From: Heterotrichella gracilis | Taxonomy: Eukaryota > Sar > Xanthophyceae > Tribonematales > Xanthonemataceae | NCBI GenBank assembly: GCA_032358255.1 | Contig: JAULBX010014314.1 | Location: 1 to 64,000, forward strand | Direction: 5' to 3' | Length of the DNA: 64,000 nt | Part shown: positions 3,618 through 57,250 of the stretch, piece by piece | Layout of the letters: the number at the start of each line of letters is the position of its first letter | How positions within the stretch are numbered: position 1 is the stretch's first letter | Notes under the pieces: model-generated | Database searches by the model: none | Seen by the model: the letters and a program-made list of their open reading frames with translations, nothing else | Told to the model about the DNA's origin: nothing | Translations under genes and position numbers: made by a program

Positions 3618-5515
3618 TTGTGTATCTGTGTATTCTCAGTTGCAGGATGCGCATGAAGGATGGTACGGGGGTGCACAGGAAATGACCCGTAAAACAGTTT
3701 TGTTCACTTTACAGCAGGAACATAGGCCATATTCAGTTCATAGTTTATTCTTTCTTATGCCACGTGGCCAAATTGTTGCCTCACAAGCACATGCATCTTG
3801 CTGCTATTGTGTATAAAAATAGAGCAAGTTTGTTGTGAAGTACGAGTAAACGCTGCTGCATCAGCAGATCAATTCAGGCCTTTACTGTAACAAAAACAAA
3901 CGTTCAGCACCCTTGCCTTGTGCAGCATGCACTTTCCATGGACAGAGCTTCAGATAGGAAGCTCCTGGGTATATACCTTGTCACATGGAGTCCAGAATAA
4001 GACCAGGCCCACCCCAGTGCCTAGTGCCCCTAGAGTTGATGTCAAGAGGGCCACTGGATGCCCATGATATGTTCTGCCTCCTGAAGGCCAAGCTTCTGAG
4101 CAAGGTAGTTGCACAGCAGTGCCCTTTGAGAGGGCACCTGATCCTGATGTTTTGTCGTCTCCAGTGCCGTCATTAGGATCATTACAAGCACAGAGGGCCA
4201 TGCAGACGTAATAATAAATGGTTCCCTCCCCGTCGCCGACGTCGACGCCAGGGCCAGTTTGCACCTGTGCTGGAAAAAAGGTGAGTTTGGCAAAACCGTG
4301 GGGGAACTGGATGTCTAAGGTTGGATACTGCTGCAAAATACTGGAATCCCACATCACGTACAGCCAGGTCCATGATGACTGCCAGGGTCTGGAGGTTGGC
4401 GATGGACGCCACACATTCCAGCACACATGTGCTCCATTTCTGACTACCTACCAAGTCCAGCGGGTGGACCCCAGAGCCCCAGTGCAGTGAGGGCACTGAT
4501 GGATGCCTGGCTTTTCAAAACTGTATACCCCTTTCCTCCCTGCTCCCCTGCCTCTCCCACTTTGTGCTGCAGCGGTACAAGTGCAGTTTGCAGACCTTAC
4601 AGCATGGACGGTGGCAATCATTATGGCCTGCTTGCTGTCATGTCTGTCTGTCTTTTGAATGTTTTGGTGGGCGCCCACTTGCTGGGCTTGTCAATTTGTA
4701 TCAGATGATATTCAAAAGGTCCTGTCTGACATGCATATGGCCCTGAAAAATGGACTGTCGTACACGGCGATCTGTGGCAGCCAGGAGTGCGACATGGCGA
4801 TGGGTGCTTTGGGGTGATTTGGCAGTTTACTGAATGTGCTGCGTGTTGTACAGGGCCTGTCAGGGGACGTCGCATTGACTCGTATGGATCGAGGACCAGG
4901 CTGGCACTAGGTACATGCAGGACATGGAGACTTGGCCAATGTCATCACAGATATAAAGCAGGCTTTCTTCAAAGGAGCCTTCGTTGTCTTGTTAATACGT
5001 ATTTCCATCTTTCGTGCTCTCTCGTCACCTTCAAGCTGCCTTCAAGGCAAAACCTGTGCCTTTGCCAACCCAACGCCACGCTAGGTAAGGAGGGCACGAC
5101 CTCAGGTTGGAAGTTAGGAGCTGGGCACAGTGTGGGAACGTTTCATCGGTCGTACCCCTGCGTGCTTTACCCTGTGCCTAAGGCCATGCTGGCCCTAGGT
5201 GGGCTTGAATCAGCCCTGCAGTGCAGTGAATGTCTTGCCTTGCAGGGAGTCATGAGACCGTTATGGTACTACCTTCAAACCTCCAAGTTTACAATGTGAA
5301 GGTTGCAAATGGCCCATCTCGGCATTGTGAATATCAGGCACTGATGCTGCAATGCATGCCATGTTGGCAGAGCATGGCTGCTCAGTGTTTTCACAGAAGC
5401 CTTTTTGAAATATATAGGCTTACCCAATAGCCGTGTCCTCTCATTGCTGATACATGCAGCAGTCTACTGTGTGTTTTGGATGCAGGGGAGCTCCTGTCTG
5501 CCAAGAGCGATCAAC
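3618..5515. other. Gene-free stretch, no supported gene
   Basis: This is 1.9 kb downstream of the sphingosine lyase stop and upstream of the small secreted protein. It should hold the lyase 3' UTR and possibly 5' non-coding exons of the next gene. Open frames on both strands are short, lack family motifs and do not join in phase. I see no RNA gene or mobile element. Confidence 0.5.
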
Positions 5516-6293
5516 ATGAAGACCACAGCTGCTGCAGTTGCCCTGATGGCATGTGCTCTCCTCACTATCATGCCACGCATCAATGCGTATCATGGTCCAG
5601 ATGTGTCTGGTCCCCTGCCCAGCTATGATGTCACACCTGCAGATGGCTACGCTTGCCAACAACAGAAGGACTGGGGGAAGTGCACAAGGGACTGGATGGT
5701 ATGTCAGCAATGCGGCTGTGGGGCCATTAACAGCCGTGCATGACCACAATATTCATTGAATAATATCCATGGTGGCTGATGCGTGCGGCTGCTTATCACA
5801 TGCAAAAGGCCTTGTCCATTATGCTCAGCAGAAGTTCTGCATTATGATGCCTCCATGGAATTTAAGAGGTACCTGAGGCAATATTCTTGTTTTGCCTCTG
5901 GAGCTCTCAGGAGGGTTTTGCAATGTGACATGCAGCAACTGTGAGGGCGCACCTGCTCCAGCACCTTGTGGGTACGCAAGCCAGACTGCAGACAGCAACA
6001 GCCTGGCAACATCAACATCTGGATCATGCGGCAATGCTACGTCCAATGCTACCACTGGAGGCCTGGCAGACTCTCATGCAGCAGATAATGGCACTTCCAA
6101 TGGCACAGCCAGCAATGGTGGTGTTGCAGGTGCTTATGCATCTGGTACAGGGACCTCTGCCGACAGCACAGCTGATGGGCCTGCCATAGCCAACTCAATT
6201 GCACGCCCTGGATACGCAAGCGCTGTGGCTGTTTCTGGACCAGGAGGCAACTCAGCCGCTTCTGCCAACGGAAGGAAGTTGCTAAAAGAATGA
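5516..6293 (+). CDS. Small secreted Cys-rich, Asn/Ser/Ala-rich protein
   Basis: The ATG at 5516 opens a clear signal peptide (MKTTAAAVALMACALLTIM, then an INA-Y cleavage-like site). A compact Cys motif follows, CQQQKDWGKC then DWM, continued in exon 2 by GFCNVTCSNC. The spacing resembles short six-Cys modules found in secreted algal proteins. The remainder is low-complexity Ala/Gly/Ser/Asn with an APAPAPCG hinge and at least five N-glycosylation sequons (NVT, NAT twice, NGT twice), ending KLLKE and TGA at 6291-6293. Exon 1 is 5516-5698 if the GTATGT donor is used; exon 2 starts near 5897-5903. The exact junction does not close in phase with the most obvious sites, so either a nearby weaker donor (at 5703) is used or one base is wrong. 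An extracellular wall or matrix glycoprotein is likely; the function is unknown. Confidence 0.65.
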
Positions 6294-7446
6294 AGCTAGT
6301 ACAGTGAGGATGTCTGGGATGATTATCCCTGGACAATGCCATGTAATATCCTGCATTAATTTGTTGCGTAAGCGGCAATGGTTAGTTGTAATTAACCGTG
6401 ACAGCATTGCCATTAATATGTTCCAGCAATTGATGCAGCCTTGCCGGTGTATCATTTAATTCAGTCCTGCGCAGAAGATTGCGCGCGCAACCTCATGAAA
6501 AGCATAGCCATTTTTGAATCACTTTGATTCTGACATTTCAGAGTGTGGACTCAATGACTCAATGGATTTGTTGTGTATTTCAATGCAATTTATGAGCCAT
6601 TCAGCAACCATACACACTAACTGTTCAGTTCAACTTGACAAGATGTATTGCCAGTACATGTAAAGCATGCCATGGCTTAATCAAGCAAAATATTTGACAT
6701 TGTGCGCGCATGCCCACCATTCCTGAATGACTGTAATACAACCGCTTGGCAAGCATGCCTGGCAACTCTGAGTCATGTCAAGGCACAATGCACTCTTCGT
6801 AGTTACTTGCACCGCACTGTTTACATTTGCAAGTCTAATCACTTGGGCATGCCGCACATGGGAAGTCAACAACCCTTGGTGACCAGATCACCAGGTCTTG
6901 GAAACAAAGCAATCATGTACATATCTGGTGTCCACTTTTGGCGTTGAACCCATGCTGGAACCTGGACCTTAGCTCCATCAGTTACGTAGAGATATACCCG
7001 CACTCTCCCACTGACCACTGATGAATGTTCTGGACTCAAAATTGTAACCTGGGCACTCGAACTTTGCAAGAAAGAAAAGCAACATGAAGCCCTCGCAGGA
7101 AGCAGCATGCATTAACTGAGTCTGAGGAAACGGACTCTACTATTGTTCAATGCTGGAAGTGGCCACAGGCCCTGGCGTTGGAATGATTTGGATATTAAGC
7201 AACAACCTATCCTTAGATAAATCATCCATAAATATGATACAAAGCAGTACTGCCACTTGTGCCAGGACAAAAGTGCCTAACGCCGTGCACGCAAGGCTGA
7301 ATGCTAATAATGCTATCTGTCCCTAGTGCACATATAACTAAGTAGACTAATGATGGGTTTCTACACGCCTCAGCTTCAACAAAACACCATCCTTGGGCTT
7401 GAAATTTCAACGCCAGCCAATGTCCAATCGGCTGGAATCAGCGATC
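6294..7446. other. Intergenic, convergent 3' regions
   Basis: This is 1.15 kb between the stop of the secreted protein (+) and the stop of the next gene (-). It is somewhat AT-richer than the coding areas and presumably holds both 3' UTRs. I see nothing else in it. Confidence 0.5.
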
Positions 7447-16922: not shown

Positions 16923-19900
16923 GCGCGCACGGGCTCGGCGCTGCGCCCCCACCGCCGCCCACAACCAGAGCGGTAAGCATGTTGAGGCCATGTCTGTTGT
17001 GCAAGATAAGCCCCCCAAGCTGACCGTCCCCTCCCAAGGCATATCCATGCCCAAGAGCAAGGTGTTTGGGGTTGAAATTGCGACGCAGCATGAAGCCCCC
17101 CAGACCTCGAAACATGTGGAGGGGGCCACTGCACACGCGGTCCAGCATCAAAAGGGGACCAAGAAGGAGAAAAAGGGTGCCAAGGTGGGCATAGCATAGC
17201 CTGGCCAACAGTGTGTGTGCACTACCCGAGATCTTAAGTCACAATTTGAACTACGTCTCATTGCTTTGTTGAGCTTCCATCGCCTACGGTTGAGCACTGT
17301 CTCCTATTCATTTCGCCACACCAATGTCTTTCCTGTTCCCCTACCATACCATCGGCTCCCCACCCAAGCATACGCGCCCCTCAACAACCGCGCCCCCACT
17401 GTCAGGTACTGGCGCCTGCCTTCTTCCCAGCCGCAGTTCTTGCAGCAGCCCCAGCCGCGTCTGCTGACACCACACCCGCCGAGGGCAGTGGCATCCCAGG
17501 GCCTGCCGGTGACCAGGAAAAAGCAGCTGCGTTTTTCTCGGCGGGCGCACCGCCGCCCCCCGCCCCCGAGCCATGGGCCACTGTGAAGGAGCAGGAGCTT
17601 GCAGGGGGGGTGCTGCACACCGTGTGCTGGGAGGGCAGCCGCATGCTGAGGGTCTGGACGCCTCCAGGTGCGAAGCAGGAGGGTTTAGAGGTTCGGGTTT
17701 TTAAGCGCGCAGGCATGCTTCAGGTCTGGACGCCCTCATGGGGCTGGGGGCCAGAGTTGAAGTGAACAGATGTAAATTTGCACGATATTTACTTGTTTAC
17801 AGATTTGCACTATTTAACCCAGGCCTCCACCAACAGAGATAATTGTACAGAATTTACATACATCAGGTGCATTGGAAGTCTAGAACATGTATACTTCATT
17901 CTCATCCATTGCGCACACACCCCCGCAGGCTTCAGCACCACCGCCCCCGACGTGGGCCAGGGACACCCCGTGCTGTACCTCAACGACGGACAGAACCTGT
18001 TCTTCGACGACATGTCATTCTCGGGCAACTCCTGGAGGGCAGCCGAGACAGCCGCCCAGCTGATTGGCTCAACCGAGGTGCCCCCCTTTGTGATTGTGGG
18101 GATTGACAACGGGGGTGCGGATCGGTCCCTGGAGTACACGCCCTACAAGCCGGGGACTGGCCCTGGGGGCCACAGGAAGGATGCGGCGGATTGGCCGGGG
18201 GGCGACGTGGAGAAGTACCTTGCACGGTGCGGGGCGCTGGGGGGTGGCGGGCGGGTGGTGTGGTGTGGATGGGGGTGGATGGGGGTGAGTGGGGGCTGTG
18301 GGTGGTTGGGTGTGGGTGGGTGTGGGTGCGGAGCATAACATAACATAACATAATGCTGTATGTGTAACAGCAAGGTCATGTTAAACACATCATCACCCAT
18401 AGTCGGATGGATGGGTGCATGGGGCATGTGTCATGCGGTACATGGTGTGGTGGTGCATGTTCAGCGTGTGCGTGTGGTCGAGTGGGCACCGCTGCGGGTG
18501 GTTGTGGGGTGTATGCCAGTTGTACAATGGGATCAAAGGTGTAACAGCTATTGGAGTAAAGAACAGAGGGTCTGGGCGGGGTTGCAGGAGAATCACCCCC
18601 AGTATTTGGCGCACATGCAGGACAGGGCTGGGTGGCGCAAGGCTGATTTCTGATCTGGCTGATTGCTGATCTGCCAACATGCAAGTAATTATTATGATTA
18701 AAGCATCAATTATCTGCTGCACATGCAGGCTGGTGGATGAGGTCATCCCCTTTGTGGCAGAGAAATTCAAGGTGTCCCAGGACCCCTCGCGCGTGGCATT
18801 TGGGGGGTCGTCCTTCGGCGGCATTTGCGCCCTTGTGGCCGGCATGAAATACCCGCACGTTTTTGGGTCCCTGCTGGTGGAGAGCCCATCCCTGTGGATT
18901 GCCGAGGAGAAGTTCTTGAATGAGGACCTGGCAAACTACCAGGTGGGTGTGCATGGCGTGGGGCCACTGGTGGCGGGTGCATCCTTCTGGGGGCAAGGGT
19001 GTAACTGCAACAGCAAACAAGTATCTGTGATAGAATATGGCAAATCTCCCAGGTGGATGTGGGGCAAATGGCTGGATGGGGAGGACACTTGTGGGTTTTC
19101 AACAGGACCTGTGTGCTATAGGCTCGGGCACCTGCCTTCTAATTAGAAACTGGAAGCAGGTGGGCACCAAGGGGTACAGCGGCATCTGGGCACAAACCCC
19201 AAACTCTAGAGGAAACCCTAAATCCAGACCCTAAACCCTAAACCACCTGTGCAGGGCGCCTGGCCTGAGCGCACCTACATGGCCATGGGCACGAAGGAGT
19301 ACAGCGGCATCAGGGAAAACCCTCAGCCAGGGTTTGACTCGCGGCTGGCGTCCTACATCCCCGCGCTAGCCGAAACCCTGCGCGCCAAGGGGGTGGGCGC
19401 GGGCAGGCTGGACTGGGATGTGGATGTGGGGGCCACGCATAACGAGAAGGCGTGGGCGGAGCGGCTGCCCAAGGCTCTCAAGTTCTTGCTGGCCCCTTGG
19501 TGGAAGCCTGTGGTGGAGGTGAATGAAGGTGAGGGGGGTACTTGTGGGGGAGGGAAGGTATGGTCAGGTGAAGATCATGGGTGGGGCAGTGCCATGGTCA
19601 AGCGTGTTCACATAAACTCTGAACCCCAACATGAATGTGCTGCTTTGCCTGTGAGGCCCAGCAGTCTTAGGTATTGATTACCGTAATAGCCCCATTGTTA
19701 TATTTCATGCCGCAGACACATGGAGACATGTACTTTGTGTAACCTGTGCATTTGAAACACAATTTATTGCCGCACCACTCCATTCACCCATGCGTCCCTT
19801 CACCCAAGCCAACTACCCCCTCCCTACCAATCAGCCAAGTGAATTCCCTCCCTTCTCCCCCAGGCAACCTGTTTTTCACCTGGCCCAAGAAGCTGAAGGC

Positions 19901-22900
19901 TGGCCTCAAAGCGAGGCTGTTCTTCAACAGCAAGCGCAGCGCAACGCTGAACGGGGAGGGGCCCGTGCGCATGGTGGCGGGTTTCAACAACTGGCGGGAG
20001 GCGCCCCTTGACCTGGCCATGCGCCCCGCACAGCTGCCGGAGAGCCATGGGGCCAAATGGTGCGACAGGGCCGGGAAATGCAGGGTATAAGACGTCCTGT
20101 AATTTGGATTAGTAGAGTTGGAAATGTTGCTTCACGTTGGGCGGGGAGTGGGGCCTGCGCATGGTTGCTGGTTTCAACTACTGGCGGGAGGCGCCTCTTG
20201 ACCTGGCCATGCGGCCCGCACAGCTGTCGAAGAGTCAGCAGCTGAAGTCGAATCCTGTTCAGGGTTTGGGGCACATTGTGACATGAACCGGCCACACCTC
20301 CTGCAGGTACTCCGCCGACTTCACCGTCCCCGAGGCCGCCTATGAGATGAACCTGGTGTTTGCCAATGCGCAAGGCACGCGCTGGGACAACAACGCCACC
20401 AACGATTTCTACATACGGGTCAAGCGCAGCCTCTCGGCCGCAGCGGCCTCCTCCCCCTCGCTGGCTGCTGAGTCCCCCGAGGAGCTTGCGGCGGTGAACG
20501 CGTTCCGGCTGTATTTTACCACCCCTGCGGTGCCTGAGAGCGGGTGCGAGACCACGCTGTACATGAACCGCAAGGGGAGCAGGGCGCTGCAGCACAGCCC
20601 TGCGCTCAAGGTGAGGAGTGTAGAGGGGCAATCGCGTTGCACACATCGCGTTAGGCAGCTACATGCCGTATACCACTGCGTCAACACTCCTCTGAATCGG
20701 CATTGAACCCTATTTGAGACCCTGGAGTAGTCATTTCTTTGCTGTTTGTTGTATGAAAAGCCTGTTACTTCGTTATACACATTGGGTGTGGATTTTATTT
20801 CGTCTAGAACTTAAAACGCAACTCAACATTCTCTCCTTACCTTTTTCCTTAACTATTTACTATCTCCCTTGTTGTTGTTTTCCAGTTATTTTCTTTCTCC
20901 CTGCTTGCAGGTCTCCTACGGTGTGAACAACTGGAAGACCACCGGCGAGGTGGAGCTCAAACCCACAACCCTGTGGCGGGGGGACTCGGTGGACTGGTGG
21001 TCGGCCACCATCCAGCTGCCCAACAACGCCTCAGACATGTCGTTTGTGTTCGGGGACGGGAACGGGGTGTGGGATAACAATGGGGGCCACAACTACTCCA
21101 TGCCTGTGCGCTCCCGGACCACGGCGATTGTGACTACTGCGCGGAGGCGGGTGGAGGAGGTGGAGAGTATGGACCACGCGGGGGGGCGGCTGGATGTGTT
21201 GACGCTGGAGAAAAGGCCAGGTGGGGAGAGGGGTGGGGATGGGGATTTGGGGGGGAGGTGGCGGGGGTTGGAGTGCTACATCCGGGGGTGGGGGTTGGGG
21301 GGATCTCAAATTGTCGGGTGTGAGGGCATGGGTGCAGACATGCCAAGCGGCAGTCAGTGCACATAGATCTCATCCCAACCCAAACACGGGTTACAGCACC
21401 TACACTGCATCCCCCAGCAAATGGACAGATAGGATTGAATGAAATCCCACACCCTTCACAAACCCTGACTCCTTCATCCTCGCCCGCAGGCACCAGCAAG
21501 TGGAGGGAGGAGAACCCCACAGAATAACCCAAACCCTTCCTAACCCTGAAGTTTAGGGCCTAAACCCTTCACCCTCACCCACAGGCACCAGCAAGTGGAC
21601 GGAGGAGAAGCGTGTGCGGGTGTGGACCCCGGCTGGCGTCACCCCGGAAAACGCCCCTGAGGGCGGCTGGCCTGTGCTGTACTTCAACGATGGACAGAAC
21701 CTGTTTGAGGACTGGCTGGCGCACCAGGTACGGTAATGCTGTATAAAACGTGTACACAATAATTGTCAAGAGACTACGGAAAAGAAGGCTAGGAAAATTT
21801 TACATTGACATTTCATCATTTGAAAATGATGTATCTTTGTGGGTTCAGAAATATATTGTAAGATTGGAGGTAATGTTGAGGATTTTTAGCACGCAAATCC
21901 TAATAAGTAGTACATGTAGTGTCAGGATAGACGGGCACCCGGGCACCGTCTACATGCAATGCTGGCTGGTAACGATGCTGTACATGGCTGGTACATGCAC
22001 GTCACCAACTAACCAACTGTGTACTTGTGCACACCAGGCGTGTCCTGGCAGGTCGGCCTGACAGCCGCCAGTGTCGTGATGCCTACACATATATACCAGT
22101 AATAAACTAACCAGCTTTGTTTGTCCGCACGCACCAGGGCGTATCCTGGCAGATTGGCCTGACAGCCGCCAGTATCGTGATGCCTACACATATATACCAG
22201 TAATGAACTAACCAGCTGTGTGTTTCTGTGCAACAGGGGGTGTCCTGGCAGATCGGCCTGACAGCCGCCAGGCTCATCGACGAGAAGAAGGTGCCCCCAT
22301 TCATCATCGTGGGGATGGACAGCGCGGGGCCCATGCGGTCGCTCAACTACCTGCCGTACGCGCCGGGCACTGGCAGGGGGGGGTTCAGGGGGGACGCGGC
22401 GCGGTGGCCGGGAGGGGGGCTGGATGCCTACATGCACAGGTGGGTGGGGTGTTGGATGTGGGGGGAATGTGTGGGTGGGGTGGGTGGGTGGATGCATGCA
22501 TGCATAGGTGGGGTGGGTGGGTGGAAGCATCGCTTGGTCATTAGCTACCATACGTACAATCAGCAATGAGCCAGGTCCGCATCGCCCTTGCACAAGCGCC
22601 GCCAATGGGCAGGCAGTAATCAGCTCTCAACTTGCAATAACCCTTGGGTCCTAGTAAACCCATGCTTTCACCATCCTCTGAACATGCAAGTGTGCAGGTT
22701 TGTGGAGGTGATCATGCCTCCACCATGCTCTGAACATGCAAAAACCCTTGTGCAGGGTTGTGGAGGAGATCATGCCCCTGGTCAGCGAGCGCTACGCAGC
22801 CGCCAGGGAACCCGAGAGGGTGGCGTTTGGCGGCGGCTCCTTTGCGGGGGTGTCTGCCCTGTATGCAGCCATGCGCTATCCGCACGTGTTTGGCAGCATC

Positions 22901-26974: not shown

Positions 26975-29900
26975 ATGCAGTCATCAGAGCATCCAGGCTG
27001 TGGGGCAGTGCTACTGCTGGGAGCACCAGGTGTGGGCAAAAGCAGCCTTGGGGATGCCCTGGCAGCCAAGCATGGCGCCACATTCCTCAACGTGGGCAAG
27101 GAGCTTTGTGAGCAGGGCCTTGTGGATCCCTACTTTGAGCACCCCACACAGGCGGGCAAGCAAGGGCTGGCACGCAAAGCGCACAGGCTGGTGTCAGAGG
27201 CACGTGGGAGGCTTAAGCTTGCAGATTTGGCACCAACAAAGCAGGGTCATGATGGCACAAGGTGGGCTGGGTGATTGCATGCACAGCAACTGGTATAGGC
27301 CACCATGGCTTCTGCCATATGCATAGCATACAGGCTTGACACATGCACAGCTGCGTCATGCATGAATCACTAGAAGTGCCATGCAACCCTTATCCATGGC
27401 TGTGGTGTACAATGATGAAGCCAAGGGGCTTTGGTGGCACCCACTGGTTTGCTGTAAATGTGGGGGAAATATTTCTTTGCACTATCGCAATATGTCTGCC
27501 CTTTCCTCCTCTTCCCTTCCTCCTTTGTTGATGACCGCCTTGGCATGCATAGCATGAAGCGGTGACGATCATATCTTCATGGTAACGTGTCCCGCAAACA
27601 TTATGCAGGATCCTCGTGCTGGAGTGTGTGCAGGAGTTGGATGATGCATTCAGCGTGATGGAGGAATTGCATGAGGCTGGGGTGCCGCTGCTGCACGTAC
27701 GCATTTGCTTGGGTGTGCATGCAAAATTTGCAAATGCTGATATCATACTATGCTATTAGCATAATGCAAACGCACCACTTCTGTGCCCGCGCTTACCAGG
27801 CAGCATGTGTGTGTAATGACTTCTGTAATCATCAGCCCTAGGTAGTGACATGCATGCGCTCCCAACAAATTCCAAACACATAAAATTATGAACTTGTTGC
27901 AATCTCAGCAGGAGTATTTAGCCTTGCATGCTAAAGGCACCAGAGGGCAAGGTTGGCACAGCAGCATGTACGCATGCCGCATCACCCACAGTGCCTACCC
28001 ATGCCTGCGCAGGGGCTACTTGTGGATGCCAGCTGCAAGCAGTACCTTGCCTCCAATGCCCACAGCAGAACCGGCAGCATCGGCCTGCAGGCATCAGCTT
28101 CCAGCGACAAGGAGCGACACGTAGCCGAGCGACAGGCCACGTGCGCAGGCATGCCACATATATGTATAAAAAATTGTTTGCATGCGCCTCTGTGCTCCGG
28201 TGGCAAGAAAGCATGAAGCATGGTCACGAGCATTTGCTTTGTCATGTACTGCACATCACTTGCACAACAGACATGCCACACTGGATAGGGTTTGGGGTTG
28301 AGGATTACCTGTGCATGTCAGCCGCTGCAGGGTACACTCTTCATGACAATTGTGCTCGAGCCTGATGTGATTTTGTGCGGAATACCTGTGCAGGGGAGGC
28401 CAACGCTGCTGCCCTGGTAGAGTTCTTCTCAGCACTGGGGGTGCTGGCAGAGGTGATAGCAACCACAGACCGTAAAATTCTGACGGCAACCCGGTTTGGA
28501 GCTGGGAACACCCGTCATGAGCCAGAAGGCCACTCCCTGGCGGCCATTGGCTACGCACCAGTGTTTTCAGCAGGGCTGAGAGAGCCAGCGCACCAGGCAG
28601 CAACACGTGGCTGCAGCGCGCAGGCTGGTGCAGCACTGACAGCCAACTGGCAGCTGAGCCCGCCATCTGTGCACACTGAATCGAGCCTGTGGTGTCCCCA
28701 CGCCTGGTCACCAGTGCTGCGGAACGGCGCACAGTGCTGGCGTTTGCTGCTGGCGCCTCGGGGCTGCACACTCTAGGGCAGGGGAGCGCACCCTTTGCAG
28801 TGCCCGCGCAGGCTGTGGTCAGCCCCATGGATGCGCGCTGGGTGGGGTGGCCAAAGCGGTACATGGCATCCCTCCAGGCGGATGGCACCCGCTGCTTCCT
28901 GCTGGTGGGGGGAGGATGGCACGTCCTACCTGCTCAACCGTGCATGCAGCCTTTACAGCTATCCCCTCAGGGAAGGCCTGGTGGGTGGTGGTGCGGGGTG
29001 TGATGGTGGTGGTGGCGGTGGAGAGGTGCTGCAGCTGGCACCTGGGACAGTGCTAGATGGGGAGCTGGCGTGGTAGGGGCTTGATGGCGCCTGCTGTGGT
29101 GCCTTCATCGCTTTTGATGCCCTGGCAGTGGGCGGACAGCGCACATGGGAGCTGCCGCTGCCGGACCGCCTGGCCATGTTGCAGCAGATTGGGCTTGATG
29201 AGGCGGAGGGATGCGCTGCATTGTGCACAGCAGCATCCACAGCCAAGGAGCATGGTACTGGCACATCAGGCCCTCGTGAAGCAATCTTGAAGACGAAGCA
29301 GCAGGCGCTGCCACCTGGCAGCGACGACATCCTCCTGCTGCGCAAGCGACACGTGGCAGTGACTGCTCATGCGCTGCATGAGCTGGAGGAGTGTCGCCGC
29401 AGCTGCCCATACCCTACCGATGGTCTGCTGTTCACCCCATCAGCCTTCCCTTATGCGCTCGGCATGGCACAGCTGCTGTTCAAGTGGCAGCCAATGGACC
29501 AGACAGCGGCTGACGTCTCTGGCAAAGACCTCAAGAATTCAATCAAAGACTGGTTTCAATTGCAGGCAGCAGGGCGTGAGCAGGTGGGGTTGTGGTTGGC
29601 TTTCCAGGGCCCAGACTGGCTGGTGTACGAGTGCGTGGTGAGGCGGCAGCCTTCAAAGCCTGCACGGGCACCTGAGGTAGCAGCAACTGCGGCAGAGACT
29701 ACAGCAGCGGGGGGCCTGTCACAGCGCCAGGCAGAGCAGCAGCGCAGAAACAGGCATCAGCACCCTGGCGCCCAGTGTCAGTTTGCTGGGACAAGGCCAA
29801 GGCCAATCCAGCGGCAACCGCATCGGGCATCCTGCTGCGGTCCACGCAGGGGCGCTACCTGACGCCTGCGATGCTGAAGGACGCCGTGGCATGGGTGCAG

Positions 29901-31733
29901 GACACAGCATTGGGCATGGTACTTGAGCAGGGTGCAGACCGCCATCCTGCCCGCCTGATGCCCTTTGATCAGCTGATGGAGCAGGTGGTGGCAGAGGTAC
30001 AGGCAGGCACAGTGGTGTGCACAGTGGATGCAGCCACTGGCTTAGAAATTTACTGCTATGATCCGTCCTTGGGCCCGCCAAAAACCGCCATCTCAGCCAT
30101 GTGCCGTGGCCTGGTGCTTCACCCACCCAGCTCCACAGTTGTTGCCACACCCTTTGTGCACTTCGGTGAGCTGGTGAGCCTGCGCCGGGTGCCAGCTTTG
30201 ACCGCAGCGCCAGCAGCAGCAGCAGCAAGGGCAGCTGCGCCACTTGCAATGCCCAGGTCAGGGGGTCAGAGCATAGACAGAAGAATCAAGCAGCCAATGA
30301 TGGTGACGGGGATGGTGGCGGTGGCGCTGACTGGGGCGTCCACTTGCTGCCTGGCAGTGCAGGTGATGCCCGCAACATGGCAATGTACCAAATGGGTGGT
30401 GGGGGCATTGCTAGTGCCAGCTTCAAGGTGGATGGCTTGCTGGTGATTGCGTTCCTGTGGGAGGGGCAGGTGCACACCGCCACCCGCCGCAGGATGGATT
30501 CAGGGCAGGTGAGCACCAGCACCTGATGTGCACACAGTTCAATGACACAGTAGTATAAGAATCTAAATCTGTTGGGCTTGGTAAAAGACTTTCCTGTAGT
30601 CTACGACTGACCCGATTTGGTTCCAAGACTGGAATGCAGATACTTTATTGTCGAGTCAATTTAATGTATTATTTTCAAGAAAGATACCATCTGCAAGCTG
30701 ATTGTAGAATAACCTGCTCAACATCCTGCAGCATTGCATGTCAGTACCAAAATTGCTGCATGCTGGACGCACTTGAGCACCACATGCACACTCCTCAAAG
30801 ATCCTGCTATATCTAGGGTTTATGGCATTGTTATGGGGTTCCTGATGATTTCCTCACCCCTACATGCACCTGTACACCCTCAACCTTGGTAAAACTAAAC
30901 CCTAAACCCTGATCTGCAGGCTGTGTGGGCACGCGGCTGGCTGCAGAACCATGCGCTGGAGCCCGGCTGGACCTACCTGTTTGAGGCTGTGTATGCAAAC
31001 AACACCCATCTCATACCCTACGCATGGGAGGGGCTGGTGCTGCTGGCAGCAGTACAGCCAGATGGCCGCGAGCTGAAAAGCTTGGCGGCGCGGCATGAGT
31101 TGGCGGCGCGCATGGGGGTGGTGGCCGTGCCCCATTTGGAGGGACCTGAGGACGAGCTGTGTAAACGCCTGTCGCGCGGCACAGGCTGCCCATCAGCGGC
31201 GGTTGGCTGGGGCAGGGTTGGGGATGGGACACAGCGCAGGGTGCCAGCTGCGCCAACGTTTGAGGGCTGGGTTTTGGAGGACACCGGAGGCGCGCGACAC
31301 AAGCTGGTGCAGCGTGCGTTCAAGCGCGCCGCCGCTGCTGCGGAGGTGTGCTTGCACCCGCTCGCGGTGTGGGATGCGGTGAAGTGCGGCGGCGCCTCGC
31401 GTGGAGCTGCACGCGCAGCTGGATGCGCTGGAGGTGGGCTTCTGCGCTGTGGCGGGCTTCTGTGGACTGGTGCACAAGCTGGAGCTTGCCTTTGGGCCTG
31501 CAGATGATGCAGCACGCAGGGTGGCTGGTCCGCTGGATGTGCTGTCAGGCATGCTGGAGGGGCTTGGCCTGGGTGACGGCAATGGCAGTGCTCCAGGCAG
31601 GGTGGCTACCACACTGGGTGCACTGCCAGGCATGCTGGAGGGGATGCGCTTGGTGGAGGGTGCTGCTGCTGCGGTGCCCACAGCAGGTGAGTACAATGTG
31701 GGGAGGAGCCAAAACCTTTTGTCAAAAATTTGA
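26975..31733 (+). CDS. P-loop kinase / capping-type nucleotidyltransferase / RNA ligase fusion (damaged)
   Basis: ATG at 26975. Exons 26975-27261 and 27609-27696 join in phase: Walker A GAPGVGKSS in an adenylate-kinase-like start, then ILVLECVQELDDAF. More exons follow at about 28013-28140 and 28385-28560. From 28689 a capping-guanylyltransferase-like domain appears: PAQAVVSPMD, YMASLQADGTRCFLLV (motif I with Gln for Lys), GTVLDGELA (III), FIAFDALAV (IIIa), TDGLLFTP (IV), LLFKWQP (V). From about 29770 an Rnl1-type RNA ligase follows: GLEIYCYD, CRGLVLHPP, VVATPFVHFG (donor 30165, acceptor 30362), SFKVDGLL with the ligase lysine, YLFEAVYANN, EGWVLED, RHKLVQRAFKRA, LHPLAVWDAV. Lesions are a G-run shift at 28907-28912, TAG at 29074-29076, and a frame change near 31390. 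Role inferred: RNA 5'-end or break processing. Confidence 0.75.
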
Positions 31734-32650
31734 ATTTTTTTTTCTATTAATGGTGTCAACCTTGCCGTGTCATCTGGATCACGCACCTTCCTGAAGGTCT
31801 TGAATTGAACTTGAAATTGCGCCACCTAGCCAACCTCTTGGAAGGCGCAGCAGATGATATGCCAAGGTTGACACCATTGCAAGTGCTGACAAGACTATGG
31901 TTGAATATCCAAATGCTTTCACCCCGAGGGATATTTTGCAGGGTAATGCTGACCTTGATGGCCACATGAGCACATGAGCAGAACACATACCATGCCATGC
32001 AGCGACTTCACCATCTCTAAATCCATTTAGGGACATTACATGAACTTGAAGCTTAATTCACTCGGGGTTTAGGATTTTTAAATTTAGGGTCGGTCATCAT
32101 CATTTCATCTGCCTTCCTCGCTGACCAGAATGCTTGCTGCAGGGCCCCAGTTTCCAGCCGCCCTTTGCTACGCACGAGCCTGTGGCAGCGCTGCTGCGGG
32201 GCCCATGTTCCTGCAGCAACAGAACAATGCTGCGCCACTCTTGCGCGACTCTTGCTGCGCCACTCTTGCGCAATCTTGCTGAGGGCTGGGCAAGGGAAGG
32301 GCCACTGGGCAGATGCGGCAGATGGCTTGCAGGGTGTGCAGCCATGCCCGGGGAAGTCAGCATTAGCGAGGTACGGCAACTGTAGATGGGATTTGTATTG
32401 GGTGCAATACGATATTTGAATTTATTGCCTGTTGAAATAATCGTTAATAGTGAATTACTGTAAAACAATCTTTTGTTATGTTCACACCTAAAAAAATCAT
32501 TATTTGCAGCGCACAATAAATCAGATCTGGCAAACTTAAGATAGGATACGGTAATCAGATTCTGTCAAAAGACCACTCGTCACGAGAGAATCCTCTGTCT
32601 GACAGTCATGACTGCACTGTCACTGCAAAAAAAGGCTGCCTCCACTGCAG

Positions 32651-32884
32651 TTGGAGGAAATTGTGCTGACGCATGGGCAGCTGGAGGGTAGGCACCTGGC
32701 ACGTGCAGCAGTGGTGTGCAAGGAGTGGCGCAGGGTGGTCAGCGGCCATCCCGACTGCCAGGGGAAAATCAGCGATGCCAGGAAGGCCATGGAGCAGAAG
32801 CCGCGTATCCGTCACTTGTATAGCTCAGATGAAGATGACGCGGTCACGATCTATGCTCAACCCAGGAACAGGTCGTCGAGGTAG
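32651..32884 (+). CDS. F-box-like exon
   Basis: After a CTGCAG acceptor this exon encodes LEEIVLTHGQLEGRHLARAA followed by VVCKEWRRVVSGH, the hydrophobic and W/R pattern of an F-box helix bundle. It then has a short acidic SSDEDD tail and a stop at 32882-32884. An F-box would link a protein to SKP1-cullin ubiquitin ligases. No substrate-binding repeats are visible. It may be the final exon of a separate small gene or a late exon spliced from sequence around 32100-32400. Confidence 0.4.
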   Translation: MEEIVLTHGQLEGRHLARAAVVCKEWRRVVSGHPDCQGKISDARKAMEQKPRIRHLYSSDEDDAVTIYAQPRNRSSR

Positions 32885-38900: not shown

Positions 38901-41900
38901 GCGCGCGACGCTGATGAGGATGTCGGGGAACTGCGGGGAGTAGAAGTTTAATGTCATTTTAAACTTAATGTAAAGATAAACACCAATTTGACATAATTTT
39001 ACAACGGGGGATGTATTGGTAACAGTAAAATTAAAAATGACACCCATTGACATGCAGTGTGCCAGAAACTCAAGGGAGGCATTGCAAACGCTCCATTCAG
39101 GGTTTTTGCAAGAATAAGCTTGAAAGCGCGGATGAGGATTTTACAATGTAGCTCCTTACCTGCGGGAAGTGCTTGATGAGCTGCCGCGGCGGTGATCACC
39201 CCGGCAAGTAGGGTTTGATTAGGGTTTCAGCAGAGATTTAGGGCACCCTCCTACCTGTGGGAAGTGCTTGATGAGCTGCGTGGCGGTGACCACCAGGCGC
39301 GAGGGCTGGATGGCGGCCTTGCCGCGCGCGCTGCCCCGCTGGTATGCGCTGCCTGCCAGGTGTAATCCCGGGGACTGGGGGCTACTGTGGTGGGGGAAGG
39401 GGAGGGTTAAAATATGGGGATCAGGCTGTGGCTAGCTAGCTACATGCATCCCAAGGGCGATCGTGTGGTGTTGTATACAAAACGGCCATTTAATGATAGA
39501 ATAAAAATCATCTGGTGGACCCAGTGCATTCCTGGAGGCCAGCGCCAGCCCCGCATCCAGCCGTACCCTAGAATGTATCCTGGGAACCCCACCTTTCCCC
39601 CTTGGGCTCCGGCGACGCCTGGAACACGTCGTTCTCCAGCGCAGTGAACAGCAGCCACTCCAGCGAGCGGTTGAAGTGGGGCCCCAGCGAGTGCCTGGAG
39701 GCCAGCGTGAGCGCCTCGTCCAGCTTCCCCTTTTGCAGCAGGCGGCGCAGCAGGCAGGGGAGTACAGGCTGCGACTCAGGCAGGGGGTGGAAGCAGGGGA
39801 AGGCCTCGGGGGCCCCCGGTGCCCTGCTGGCGTTGCTGTGGCGCACCACGCGCTGGGTCACGCCTGCGGTGGTGGGTGGTGGGTGGGGGATGGTGGGTGG
39901 TGGGTGGCGGGGGAGGGGTTGCGGCGGTGTGCTGGTGGCCAGGGACGTGATGTGATTGTAGCAGTGGGGTTTGGGAGTTAGGGTTTGCGGTGTAGGGTTG
40001 CAAGTGCGCTCGCCCAATGGTGTGGTTGCGGCAGTGGGTCAGGACTGCAGACGTTGCCCCTCCCCATCCCCGCTTTGCTCACGTATCGGAGTGTTGTGGT
40101 TTCAGGCTGTAGGGTCTCAACTATGATCGCCACCTCCTACAGTAAAATGCGAAGTGGTACACCTTGGGTTTTTGGGGTACAGGGTTTATGATCTAGGGTT
40201 TTAGAGTGTAGGGCCTCACCTATGATTGCCACCTCCTCCAGCAAGATGCCCACCGGGTACACCTCGAGGTCAAGGGCTTTAGGGTTTTATGGTATACGGT
40301 TTTGGGGTTTAGGGCCTCACCTATGATTGCCACCTCCTCCAGTGAGATGCCCACCGGGTACACCTCGGGGTCAAAATCTAGCTCGGGGTCCGTCTGGCGC
40401 TTGGACTTTTCCCGGAACACAGGCGAGGTGGGGTCAGCCAGCGCCGACTGGAACCACATCTGCATGCCCGAGGCGCCGTAGGTCCACATGGGCATCTCAA
40501 CAAATGCGGCTGCGGGGGTGGGGTGGGGTGGTGGGTACATGGGGGTGAGCGGGGATGGTGGGTGCTGGTGCCAAGTCACGACCATCTGCCAAGTCATCCG
40601 TTCCCGCAGCTGGAAACGTTCCTCATTAACGGGTGATTATCCCGTTCCAGGTGGTTTGCATTTACAATACTGCTACGTTTTCCCCTATTAACTACCCTTC
40701 TCTGTGACTCACCGTTGATCTGCCCATCTGCTCGACTGCATACAGAGGCAGCATCCTCATCAGGGTCTCGTCGGAAGCCATCCAGGGACTGCCGGGATCC
40801 CCCGCCCCCGCCATTGGAGTGCGCCGGGCCCCCGCCCGGGGTGGTGCTGCCCTGCGCCATGAAGGGGGCCTCCGGCATGGGTGCCTGGGCCACGCACACA
40901 TGCAGCGTTTAGGGTTTGCAGGGTTTTCAGACAAGGGTCATCGGGGGTATTGAGGTTTTTGCTGCGCTGCCCGGGCGCCATGAAGGGCTTTGGGTTCAGG
41001 GTTTGGAGGGTGCTGCACTGCGCTATGAGGGGGGCGTTCCGGCGTTGGTAACTCCAGCGTGGATGCCCCGGGCACAGCAGTGTCCAGGGTTTGAATGTTT
41101 TGCAGTCAGATTTCAGGGATTTGCTCCGCAACCAGTGCGCAAACCCAGCCCAGCATCGGCGCATGGCAGCCTGCACCCCACACATGCACAGCTCCTCAAA
41201 CCCTACAGCACATGTCCCACACCCTACCGCCCATGCCCCGCCCACACACGCCTTCCCTCCAACCCCCCTGCCCAAAACCCTACACTCTCAACCCCACAGC
41301 CTACCCTAACCATGCTGCACACACCTCAAACTGGCCCGAGGCTGCCGACGGCAGCGATGCCGCGCGCTCATACCCCTGATTCGCATCCGGGCAGCTACTG
41401 CTCGGCAGCCAGAAGAACTCCACATTCTCCGCCAGCGGCATCTCCGACCCTTGATCCAAATCCAGCACGCTCAGCCCCCCGCCCTCCCGCAGAACCACAC
41501 AGTGGCTGGGCTCCGCGCCGCCCCGGGGATCCGCGCCGGGGATGCGCGAGAACGCGCGGGGCTCGATGAGCGCAATGTCGCGCAGCGGGTGCCCCACCGA
41601 CATCATGGACAGCTCGCGGACGGCGGTGACGATGGCGCGGGCAGCGGAGTTTGGCGCCACCCGGCCGCGCACGTCCACGCGCAGCAGGACCACGTCCAGG
41701 GGCGCGCAGGCGATGGCCACGTACCGGCCGATACAGTCCATGGCCAGGGGCACCTGTGGGGGTGGGGGTGGTGTGTGTGTGGACTGAATGGTGTGTTGGT
41801 GGATGCAGCATCCGTGGCCAGGGGTGTGTGTGGGTGGTGGGGGGAGAATGGTGTGTTTGTGGATGCAGTCCATGGCCAGAGGGGGCCTGTGGGGTGTGAA

Positions 41901-44900
41901 TGTGGGTGGTGGGGTGGGGGTGGGGTGGGGGAGAATGGTGACTTTGTCGATGCAGCGTGCATGGCACCTGTGGTGGGTTGGGGTGGAATGGATTGGGGTG
42001 GATTGATGATTTTATGATGACCATGACTCAATCCCTGCCACCAGAAGTCCAAGTCAAAACCGCCAAAAAACACAGATCCCCTCAGCTAAAAATAACTCTC
42101 TATTTTTTTTGGGGATACGGTCCGCACTCCACCGCAGCTGCAGATCAAGAGCAATGCACACCATGTTGAAACTGCCATACACCAACACTTCCACCAGCTA
42201 AATATCAAGCCCCCGCCGCTACCAAAGCGGCACCAACAGCAATCCTTCCGCACCTGAAGCAGGCAAAATCCTAAACCCTACCGTACACCCTACACCAGCA
42301 ACCTGCCGCACCTGAGGCAGCGGGAATCGCGCCAGTATGGACGAGTTGTCTAGGTGGTATCGGGGGTACAGCAGCAGCTGGGCAGCTGCAGAGGCCTTCT
42401 CGCTCACCGCACTCACTTGCGCGCACGCAATCACAATGTTGGGCAGCCACATCAGGCCCTGCGCAGCATGCGGTTGGGTCATGCTTTCTCTTTTCAGGAT
42501 GAGATGCTTGTTGCCAAGCTGGGGGGAGCACGGGGCTGTTTGCGCGCATGTCATGGCGTGGTAGGGGAGCCTTACGAGGCCCTGCGTGTGCAGTCATGAA
42601 GCACGCGTGTCCAACTATGAAGATACATATATATTTTTTCAGTACATTACTTAAAAAGATTCAAATTATCATCTTTTGCAGGGGGAAGGGACGGAAACCA
42701 ACTTGTTTTTAGCTTTGTTCGTGAACCTGACTTGATTTTCTAAGCTGCTTTGCATTTAATGCAAATGACAGTCCACTGTACCCCCCACCCCCACCCCTGC
42801 CTACCCACCTTGACCTTTATCTCCTTCTCCTGGCTCACATCCCCAAACAGCCGCCACCTGCTGCTCCGGCAGCTGTACAGCGCAAGGCCCTGCCGCCCCG
42901 CCACTGCGATATCCAGTCCGTCGGGGCTGGCCGCGGCGTGCAGTAGTGGGTAGTTGGCGGCCATGTAGGATGTGGGAACCTGCGGGGATGTAGGGGTTAG
43001 GGTTAAGTTGGCGGTCATGTGTGAGGCGGGGTAGGGTAGGGTTTGGTAGGCCACCTGCGAGTCAGGGTGGATTAGGGTACGGGTGGCAGCTATGCAGGTG
43101 TGAGCACCTGAGGCGCACACAGGGTCCAAGAGGTTATAGAGAGGTGGAGACATCAACATTTATAATCATCTGCATACCACAAGGTCAAATTCTGACTACA
43201 TCGACCATAAAAAAGTTGCCTGCTTTGAGGTGGATCAGGTCCGATCCCAGCCTCAATTTGCTGTTGCCATGTTAGGATTTTAGGGTTCAGAGTTTAGGGT
43301 TTACAATACTTTGAGATGCCTGACCACCAGGTCCGACCCCATCCCTGACTCGTCCCATGTGGCGCTGTTGCTGTGTCTGGGGCTGGACAGGGGGTCGCTG
43401 AAGTCGGGGCTGCCAGAAATGAGCACAAGGCGGTCGGAGCCCTGCGGGGGTGGAGAGTGTGGTTAGAGTTGGTGTGATAATGTGCCAATTTGACGTGTGG
43501 GAGTGACAGTAAAATACCGCAGGTTGATGTGGTGTGGTGGTTTGTGGTGTGCCGGAGATGGGCACCTGGCGGTCCGAGCCCTGTGGGGGGTGGTGATGCA
43601 GGTGTGGATGGTTGTTGCTGTGTGGCGTGGCGTGGTGTGGCATAATCCATGCTGGAAATGTGACCGCTGCAGTGCTATATGCATGTGGACCAAATGATAT
43701 GGTCATCAGCACGCAGACGGCACAAGCAGCAAATCCCCTCCCTCCCACCCCCCTCCGATAGGCACAGCCACATCCCCTCACCCCCCTCACCATTACATGC
43801 ACATCCCCTCACCCACCACCACCACCACCACCACCGCACCCACATACCCCCCCACCACCACACCCACCATGAGCACGTGCAGCTCCTCCGGCTGGCACCC
43901 CTCCCCCTCCGCCTCCCCCCCCTGCGTGGCCTGCAGCAGGCGGTGGCTGGTGCGCAGGCTCTTGGCAAAGCACACCTCCATGATGCTAATGGCCTCCCCT
44001 GCCTCACCAACCATGAGCGAGTAGCCGTGGGGATCCCAGGCAAGCGCCGACGTGCCGTTCTGCGGGGAAAGGTGGGTGGGTCGGTGGTGCGGTGTGGGTG
44101 CACAGCGCTGTGGAGGGGTGGGAGATGTGCCTCAGCCCATGCATGGGTGCAATGTGCAGTGAAGGGAACGATTCGCCGGCTATGAATGCTGTTCCTTTTG
44201 CATGAATTGTTCCCAATGTGACTGCCACCACTTTGATTGCTGTCCCCAAGTCCAACAACTATCCTTATTGTGAGTGGGGTGTTCTCATTGTCCATTGCGA
44301 CTGTGAATGGTGATTCCAACATGAATGCTGTCCCCCACTGTGAATGCTCCCCCCAAAGTAGATTCCCTCCCCATGCATGAATTGCACAGCCTCACCTCTA
44401 GTGGCACCGCAGACGCAGCAGGAACCTCCTCAGGGCTGGCTGAGGGGGCCGCAGGCAGTCGCCCTGTGTTTGCGCGGTAGGTTTGCCTCAATGAGCACAT
44501 GAGGCGGCAGCCAGAGGCCGACCACACAGCCATGCCGCGCTTGGCCCAGCCCACCTGCAGTGGAAAGGTGCTTGAGTGCGCACGCAAACCGGTAAACCCT
44601 AAACCCTACATAGCAAGAGGCCGGCCACAACACCGCCATGCTGCCCGCGCTTGGCCCACCCCACCTGCAGTAATGAGCCTGCTGAGTGCGCACGCCTACC
44701 ACAGCAGTCAACCAACCCTAAATACTAACCCCAGGCAAACACACTGCCTTGCCACGCTGCTCAGTAACGGCATGCATCCCAACATGCACCTCACATTGGT
44801 TGCATATCGCACCCCACTGCGTGCGGCTGCGGTGGGCGCCAGATAGGTGCCACCGTAAACCCTAGACCCTACACTCACCGCCAGCACCGAGGCGTCTGGC

Positions 44901-55150: not shown

Positions 55151-57250
55151 TCACTGCTCCTCTTGTTGCACCGGCTGTGGCCTGGCCGCGATGACCTCAT
55201 CGATCAGCCCAAACTCCAGCGCCTCATTGGCCGATAGGAAGTAATCGCGCTCAAGGGCAGACTCTGCACCGCAGGCAAGGCCAATCAGCATGCTACTGGA
55301 TGAAAATACAGGGCTTCATGTGTGCCCATAGGCCAACAAGCAAGATGGCCCTTGGCAGCGGCTTCGAGGGTGAACGGCAGCCCGCACTGTGCGTGGCGCA
55401 TGGTAATCATGGATTGATGCATTCCACATGAACCCACAGTGGTCCTGTAACTGCAGCGAGGCAAGCTACCTGTTTTTCACTTTCAGTTTCATTTTCATAT
55501 TCTGAGGTACTGGGCTCATCTGCACCACGAGCCGATCGGCCTGCTGTTTGTCAGGTTTAGGGTTCCATGTGTGCCACAGGCCAATCAGCCATGTGCCCCT
55601 TACCTACTGTCTGCAGCGGCTGGCCCGTGTGTTGGATGTACAGGCGGTTGAGTGTGGACCGCATCTTGCCAATCTCTGCAGCCTGGATGAGGATGTCGGT
55701 GGCTTGGCCCTGCAATGGTGGTTGCTAATCAGCGGTAATTCGTGCTATAGTGTTATAAAAATATTGGCTTTCTATGATGCAATTCAAGGGGCATACTGCA
55801 ACCATTTTGAAAGTCCATCTCCAATGCGCAGGCCGGGGCCATCTGTCTGCCGTCGCCGACGTGTATGGCAAGGCTTTGCTGCGTTCTCCAGGAATGTTGC
55901 ACAGGTCAGCACAACATGCACTAAAGTAGAATGAGCATGGGGCCGCCGACAGGATATGGGTCTTCGCAGCGGCTTGCAAGGGATAAAAATTTGTAGCCTG
56001 GCGCCGCCCTCAATGTATGCATCCCATCCTGTCCATCGCCCTATACTGGGGTGACTCCCAATGTGCACGCATGCAACTCTACCTAGATGTCGCCTGGTCT
56101 GTATGTGTTAAACCCTAAGGCGGGTGCTACCCGAGGGCTAGTGCCGCATGCTACTTTAGCTAGGGGTGACACCTGACGTGCACCAGCAGAAATCCGGTTC
56201 TAGGGTTTCACCTGTGCGCCCCCCGATGGCTGGTGCAGCATCATCCTGCTGTGTGGCAGTGACCGTCGCTCCCCGGGAGCGCCAGCGCACAGGAGTAGGG
56301 ATGCCATAGACGCCGCCTGGCCCACAGCAATGGTACTCACCAGGGGCCGGATGTACTGCAGGGGGGGGGGAGATATTAATCAAAATTGGAGAAGTCTGTT
56401 TTACTTTACAGAAGGGCGCTCACTACGAGGTGTATGGCTGCAGAGGCGCGAGTTGAAACATGAGGGGTGCGAGGGGTTTCGCTGGGTGCATTGGGGGTTG
56501 CTTTGTGGGGGAGCAGGGGTGGGGCTGGGGCCCTTACCTGCATTGTGTCGTAGATGGCGAGGCCCCCCGTGACGATGCCCCCTGGGGAGTTGATGTACAT
56601 GTTGATCTGCAGGTGCAGAGAGGAGTGACAAGTTACCTGTGGTTGTCTGTTTGAAGAGGGCCACCCATGCAGACGTTTTAGCAGGAGACACATGACATGC
56701 TTTGGTGGGTTGTCTTGTAACCCCACGAGACTTGGAATGCCTCCAAAAAAAATAGACGCGTACTGCTGTAATGAAGGGCATAAATACAGGTTGGACAACG
56801 TCTTCCAAACTTGGGGTGTACATGAGTGTGTTGACATGTGCGTGCATGTGGGCACATCTATGCACCCCGCACACCTTGTGTATTTCACCATACTCAACAA
56901 TACGAGGTGTTCAATACCGCATGTTAAACTGTTCCATATGCAGCGCGTGTTGCATGCATACATACAAATTAAATGGGCATATGCATGCATGCATGTGGGT
57001 CCCAACGGGGACCACGCACCGGCTTGTCTGGGTCCTCAGACTCCAGGTATAGCAGCTGGGCAACCACCACGTTGCTCATGTGGTCGTCTATAGGGCCGTT
57101 CACGCACACTATCCGCTCCCTCAGCAACCGGGAGTAGATGTCGAAGGCGCGCTCCCCCCGGGGTGTGGACTCGATGACCATAGGGACCAGGCCATAGCTA
57201 CGCCTGTGGATGAGACTGGAGGCGTGCGCCAGCCGTTGTAAATGGTTCAT
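55151..57250 (-). CDS. ATP-dependent Clp protease proteolytic subunit (probably mitochondrial)
   Basis: Five exons join exactly in phase on the minus strand: 57250-57020, 56606-56538, 56355-56212, 55709-55604, 55263-55151 (TGA), giving 220 residues. The start [20 protein letters not shown] is basic, Ser/His/Arg-rich and free of acidic residues, like a mitochondrial presequence; then LVPMVIE opens the mature protein. The catalytic triad is visible: Ser in GQAASMAS, His in MLHQPSGG, Asp in LERDYFLSA. Substrate-channel blocks [10 protein letters not shown] and [12 protein letters not shown] match the family. Length and order match ordinary tetradecameric ClpP partners of ClpX-type unfoldases. 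A plastid location is possible, but the presequence favours mitochondria. Confidence 0.94.

Follow-up and report, generated by a model that had tools for sequence, protein, structure and literature searches.

Does the locus beginning at position 26975 of this stretch encode one protein that joins a kinase, an mRNA capping enzyme and an RNA ligase, and is the gene still in working order? The stretch (hereafter the window, 64,000 nucleotides or 64 kb, whose numbering is used for all positions) lies on contig C144 of the intron-rich assembly listed under Heterotrichella gracilis (68.5 Mb in 903 contigs). Judged from its closest relatives, the genome is probably green-algal. Translation of the + strand gives, in order, a Walker A kinase start (from 26975), capping-type motifs and the motif set of a ligase of the T4 RNA ligase 1 (Rnl1) type. 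This order, described in the original prediction, is borne out by the translation and by full-length relatives. The locus appears to be a decayed copy of a green-algal fusion gene that is apparently intact in relatives such as Chlamydomonas.

A conserved kinase-capping-ligase family

A composite of the window pieces, with X at the joins, finds seven relatives (best expectation value (E) 5e-156, 36% identity, 94% of the query), a match that is far beyond chance at the sequence level. A profile of these seven relatives recovers at least 47 proteins at E <= 1e-4 among the 7,993 candidates scored, namely those sharing most words with it, and a profile of the capping domain recovers 51 proteins. 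Relatives include proteins of Chlamydomonas reinhardtii (CHLRE_12g524850v5, P0016), Volvox carteri (P0027), Gonium (P0010), Tetrabaena (P0013), Pleodorina (P0025), Haematococcus (P0011, P0042), Micractinium tetrahymenae (P0012) and Edaphochlamys debaryana (P0003, P0008, P0019, P0028, P0029, P0031). The six Edaphochlamys proteins include consecutive locus numbers (005443/005444 and 000590/000591), which suggests tandem duplication. P0026 is listed under the cryptophyte Rhodomonas salina and may be contamination; the other family proteins are unnamed and many are metagenomic. In a tree of 44 sequences, given here as groupings with no branch supports, the window copy groups with P0012, P0004, P0049 and P0006.

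The family was counted as 60 proteins, P0049-P0060 being assigned to it by score alone and P0061-P0090 being counted as other guanylyltransferases. The P-loop, capping and ligase lysines occur in one chain in 25 of the 60, and the capping and ligase lysines together in 37. Six landmarks are present in 23/60, and many of the others lack a region and look like fragments. Doubled or chimeric models account for four of the 60 (P0002, P0008, P0009, P0011), three of them within the 25. All six landmarks occur in eleven ENA/JGI-listed members of 754-1307 residues (P0005, P0014, P0015, P0017, P0018, P0020-P0024, P0054). The shortest, P0054, fits the three modules into a compact 754 residues; its structure model had low confidence (mean predicted local distance difference test 66.5, predicted template modelling score 0.47) and was not used for searching.

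The doubled and chimeric models could indicate that two or three adjacent genes were merged by gene prediction. This explanation is highly improbable, as the same order recurs in many genomes and in the eleven ENA/JGI metagenome-type proteins with six landmarks. Gene calling for such proteins normally proceeds without splicing. Within the window, moreover, capping motif VI and the start of the ligase share one stop-free frame (29766-30173). The pair of neighbouring genes that the original prediction had allowed for is accordingly not supported, and the search for the fused order in related genomes that it had proposed found that order. The three-part fusion is supported by sequence as real and conserved at the level of the family; what does not stand is the integrity of the window copy, which is broken.

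Catalytic positions are well kept, counting aligned family members only. The kinase P-loop Lys is present in 32/34 members, and the family combines this residue with the fold of the nucleoside monophosphate (NMP; adenylate, UMP/CMP) kinases. In the capping domain, motif I Lys is found in 55/56, motif III Asp in 57/57, motif IV Asp in 49/55, the first Lys of motif V in 46/56 and motif VI Arg in 47/49. Relatives thus carry the guanylyltransferase motif I (KxDG) Lys and motif VI (RxDK) and lack the motif V KxK. In the ligase, four residues typical of the T4 Rnl1 type are well kept among the relatives: motif I Lys in 42/42, motif IIIa Glu in 30/32, motif IV Glu in 27/30 and the first Lys of motif V in 33/33.

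Profile matches were uneven across the modules. The capping model PF01331 matches 22 of 22 members at E <= 0.01 and stands above its cut-off in the 8 with listed scores. For the ligase, PF09511 matches 1/6 members (best E 6e-4, not above cut-off) and TIGR02308 matches 5/6 (best E 3e-4; the first member scores 15.2 bits against a cut-off of 242). An F-box is found at E <= 0.01 in 2/22 members, and precomputed PF00646 matches exist for P0008 and P0028. No triphosphatase or cap methyltransferase family was detected at E <= 0.01 in any of the 22 members scanned. In the intact protein a P-loop kinase of the NMP-kinase fold comes first, followed by an mRNA guanylyltransferase with motifs I to VI and then by the T4 Rnl1-type ligase; several members end in an F-box-like tail. 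We regard this picture, taken jointly with recent inactivation of the window copy and a role at RNA ends, as probable but open to real doubt.

Source annotations name the relatives variously as hypothetical protein, adenylate kinase family enzyme, F-box protein or mRNA capping enzyme. These disparate single names suggest that the three-part nature is unrecorded in annotation. No description of the fusion or of Cre12.g524850 was found in the open-licence literature, which speaks only weakly for novelty. P0001, P0003, P0013 and P0016 share a Cys-rich sequence (CxVCGC...CYCDxC) that to the eye resembles a zinc finger, and its position varies among members, after or before the ligase. A viral origin was considered and set aside within the reach of an IMG/VR scan: among the 7 stretches picked out by two peptide patterns, tblastn shows none that encodes a relative.

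Gene model and lesions of the window copy

The pieces of the locus and the two stop codons that interrupt it are as follows.

26975..27261, + strand: kinase exon 1 with P-loop GAPGVGKS (57% identity to P0012 by tblastn; Lys codon 27038-27040)
27609..27696, + strand: kinase exon 2, ILVLECVQELDDAF (tblastn with P0001, E 4e-4, and P0012, E 0.011)
28013..28140, + strand: kinase exon 3, LID-like region (from alignment; acceptor at 28012; 3' end by eye, ends uncertain)
28395..28560, + strand, frame 1: kinase C-terminal part and linker start, EANAAALVEFFSALGVLAEV ... SLAAIGYAP (tblastn with P0004, P0006, P0012)
28584..28907, + strand, frame 3: linker and N-terminal part of the capping domain with motif I SLQADG (tblastn with P0004, E 2e-12 at 28584-28715, and with P0007 at 28680-28907)
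28677-28679, + strand: TGA stop within a conserved stretch, before IEPVVSPRLV
28912..29073, + strand, frame 1: capping motif III, VLDGEL (tblastn with P0007, P0012)
29074-29076, + strand: TAG stop after capping motif III and before motif IIIa (bridged by the alignments of P0004 and P0012)
29077..29748, + strand, frame 1: capping motifs IIIa, IV (DGLLFTP) and V (FKWQP) (mRNA_cap_enzyme, tblastn)
29766..30173, + strand, frame 3: capping motif VI as CWDK, then the ligase N-terminal part with MCRGLVLH (tblastn with P0001, P0004, P0012, P0043)
30185..30508, + strand, frame 2: low-complexity sequence together with ligase motif I SFKVDG (Lys codon 30425-30427; 69% identity to P0001 by tblastn over 30404-30508)
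30920..31393, + strand, frame 2: ligase motifs IIIa (FEAVY), IV (EGWV) and V (KLV) (tblastn with P0012, E 7e-45)
31398..31688, + strand, frame 3: post-ligase region, RVELHAQLDALE (tblastn with P0013, E 1e-5; end at a GTGAGT donor, by eye)
32633..32884, + strand: last exon with the F-box-like tail (start uncertain; translation and tblastn)

The capping-type domain extends in pieces over 28584-29786 and the ligase over about 29930-30508 and 30920-31393. Single exons give weak profile matches: kinase exon 1 matches Pfam AAA_18 at E 1e-5, under the curated cut-off, and the exon at 29077..29748 alone matches mRNA_cap_enzyme at E 2.3e-6, just under it. The original prediction placed the gene at 26975-31733. 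Its start holds and its end falls short, as 32672-32839 matches the C-terminus of relative P0001 (tblastn, E 0.001 in the 64 kb window). For the C-terminal stretch that lies between the ligase and the F-box in the family, tblastn with seven relatives showed no match in the window.

Splice junctions had been proposed to join the parts. Introns bordered by GT-AG indeed join kinase exons 1-3 (27262-27608 between the first two), and another (30509-30919) lies between the exon with ligase motif I and the one that follows; several of the other pieces are separated by frame changes and stops. Frame changes fall at 28560-28602, 28907-28915, 29748-29766 and 31393-31404, each with fewer than 50 bases between conserved stretches. 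Around the first of these, P0004 gives a weak second match in frame 1 (28534-28662, E 0.003 vs 2e-12 in frame 3). Frame breaks near 28394, where exon ends were fitted by eye, and after 30173, which may be an intron, were left out of the lesion count.

Point changes add to these interruptions. The ordered capping motifs listed in the original prediction are present; motif I, however, has lost its nucleophile, reading SLQADG with Gln (codon 28875-28877) at the position of the otherwise near-universal Lys, and motif VI, not mentioned there, reads CWDK, with Cys (codon 29784-29786) in place of Arg. Substitution of Ala for the motif VI Arg left the Trichomonas enzyme without guanylyltransferase activity (PMC2904801). 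A kinase Arg conserved in 30/37 members is Ser. With Gln and Cys at these capping positions and no open frame, the window copy itself does not qualify as a guanylyltransferase.

Could assembly quality explain the breaks? As a control, HSP70 and chaperonin matches were collected from other contigs of the same assembly (58 + 53 = 111 rows), covering 30,507 bases and 70 neighbouring pairs with a smallest gap of 67 bases. None of the 70 pairs shows a frame change lacking room for an intron. Short introns were also considered as a source of the four frame changes and rejected on the same figures, 67 bases being the smallest control gap. Another genetic code, with TAG read as a residue, was set aside because frame changes interrupt the locus too. 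As the capping lysine and motif VI arginine are lost and stops and frame changes cut the gene, the window copy is most likely a pseudogene.

Several observations weigh against a long-dead pseudogene, or against taking every break at face value. Stop codons are also held by 8 of the 111 control matches. In a leave-one-out conservation test, from which the four chimeric models among 48 were omitted, the window copy departs from 90%-conserved columns at 12/132 positions, and Micractinium at 16/134. Invariant columns are departed from at 7/47 positions in the window and 3/47 in Micractinium; five of the seven lie at piece ends or in the poorly aligned C-terminus and are uninformative. Ligase motif residues are kept, except the Glu of MDSEQ (Gly here). 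The loss therefore looks recent, or local assembly faults contribute, since conserved-column departures are no more than those of Micractinium.

The same columns, like the intact motif IIIa Glu, motif V Lys and nucleophilic lysine of the ligase, also favour a different explanation, in which the gene works in the source alga, the breaks are sequencing or assembly faults at the locus and the capping domain may be a catalytically dead scaffold. We consider this quite unlikely, given that 30,507 chaperone bases, on other contigs, contain no intron-less frame change and that two point changes strike catalytic capping residues besides the stops and frame changes. We infer that the lesions are real and not local assembly faults, and retain recent inactivation as the preferred reading. 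A second copy was sought in the same genome: searches with two pieces of the gene returned only this locus, and the capping profile returned this locus and one on contig C209; a more diverged copy may exist.

Proposed role and comparison with known systems

The locus on C209 is a canonical mRNA guanylyltransferase (L004, about 5261-6504 and after, divided among exons); its motifs I (KADG) and VI (RKDK) were read by eye. As the family shows no triphosphatase and this separate enzyme exists, capping of nascent transcripts is probably not the task of the fusion, which would have another job. RNA end repair or recapping is a reasonable reading of its architecture. The window gene would then be a recently inactivated copy, and the intact protein would repair and recap RNA ends after transcription, in the manner of Trypanosoma brucei TbCe1 with an added Rnl1-type ligase, a proposal that we think somewhat better than even.

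In the proposed mechanism, the kinase would rebuild the 5' end, converting 5'-hydroxyl to 5'-monophosphate or 5'-monophosphate to 5'-diphosphate. The guanylyltransferase could then add guanosine monophosphate (GMP) to the 5'-diphosphate end and so restore a cap, and the ligase would seal the 5'-monophosphate and 3'-hydroxyl ends of cleaved RNA. One polypeptide might in this way route broken or decapped RNA to sealing or recapping (RNA end triage). The action of the domains on RNA, the order of these steps and the cell compartment are all part of what we infer.

TbCe1 offers the closest parallel. It has RNA kinase and guanylyltransferase activities that turn 5'-monophosphate RNA into GpppRNA, it stands beside a separate nuclear capping enzyme, and recapping of decapped mRNA in trypanosomes is established biochemically (PMC11417388). 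The mammalian cytoplasmic capping complex has an RNA kinase that the same paper calls as yet unidentified. Compared by architecture, the algal family resembles this cytoplasmic recapping enzyme: a kinase-fold domain precedes the guanylyltransferase in one chain, neither triphosphatase nor methyltransferase is detected, and the genome of the window holds a separate canonical capping enzyme. Unlike TbCe1, the algal protein continues into an Rnl1-type ligase, often followed by an F-box-like tail, and its capping motif V reads KWQ.

Other known enzymes share parts of this architecture. The nuclear guanylyltransferases Cgt1, Ceg1 and Mce1 have the fold and motifs I, III, IIIa, IV and VI in common with the algal domain, which differs in motif V (KWQ, not KWK), in the absence of a detected fused triphosphatase and in carrying kinase and ligase in the same chain. 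With T4 Rnl1 the algal ligase shares motif order, the CRG Arg and the fold over 230 residues (root-mean-square deviation 2.4); it differs in motif V (K-x-V, not K-x-K), and the Pfam and NCBIfam Rnl1 models match it weakly, under cut-off. Fungal and plant tRNA ligases (Trl1, RNL) likewise unite an RNA ligase with a P-loop kinase in one chain, and Trl1 LIG-KIN is among the fold matches. In the algal protein, by contrast, the kinase comes first and is NMP-kinase-like, a guanylyltransferase stands between, and no cyclic phosphodiesterase is seen by Pfam. The algal protein would be the first enzyme known to us to combine capping with RNA ligation in a single chain.

Some features of the family count against fully standard activities. 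The second position of capping motif V is Gln in 50/55 members and the canonical Lys in 1, and that of ligase motif V is Val in 32/32 where T4 Rnl1 has Lys (KIK); either reaction, capping or ligation, may be altered or weak. The F-box matches of P0001-P0003 (E 8e-4 to 0.024) lie under the Pfam cut-off. An alternative reading of the intact protein is a repair ligase without cap synthesis: the kinase would heal 5'-hydroxyl ends, the Rnl1-type domain would seal, for example, cleaved tRNA or mRNA, and the capping-type domain would have another role, such as RNA binding or end nucleotidylylation. We judge this unlikely, since the conservation of motif I Lys, motif III Asp (57/57) and motif VI Arg argues for GMP transfer.

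On the recapping and repair reading, some algae would have one enzyme for both tasks, and since Chlamydomonas reinhardtii is a genetic model, its conserved kinase-capping-ligase protein would open both to direct testing. The motif V oddity shared by both nucleotidyltransferase domains may point to altered chemistry. A bolder version, which we hold only tentatively and with more doubt than belief, is that green algae own a single-polypeptide RNA triage enzyme whose F-box tail couples it to ubiquitin-ligase control, whose motif V changes mark altered chemistry, such as a non-standard cap or GMP transfer to 5'-monophosphate ends, and which some lineages, such as the source alga, have lost.

Other ligases and neighbouring genes

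An uninterrupted Rnl1-type ligase open reading frame (ORF; L001, 946-2292, - strand, 448 codons) is located on contig C824 around 157361-157702, with motifs EKLDGS, FELI, EGFVV and VKLK. It is a ligase separate from the fusion.

Neighbours of the locus in the window were identified by Pfam.

1662-2210, + strand: pyridoxal-dependent decarboxylase
17766-18332, + strand: esterase
20815-21360, + strand: starch-binding CBM53
41304-42011, - strand: RIC1 exon
56409-57035, - strand: Clp protease exon
63392-64000, - strand: Rieske protein PetC

A reverse transcriptase ORF at 447-1364 on the - strand (RVT_1, E 2e-9) is probably part of a retroelement.

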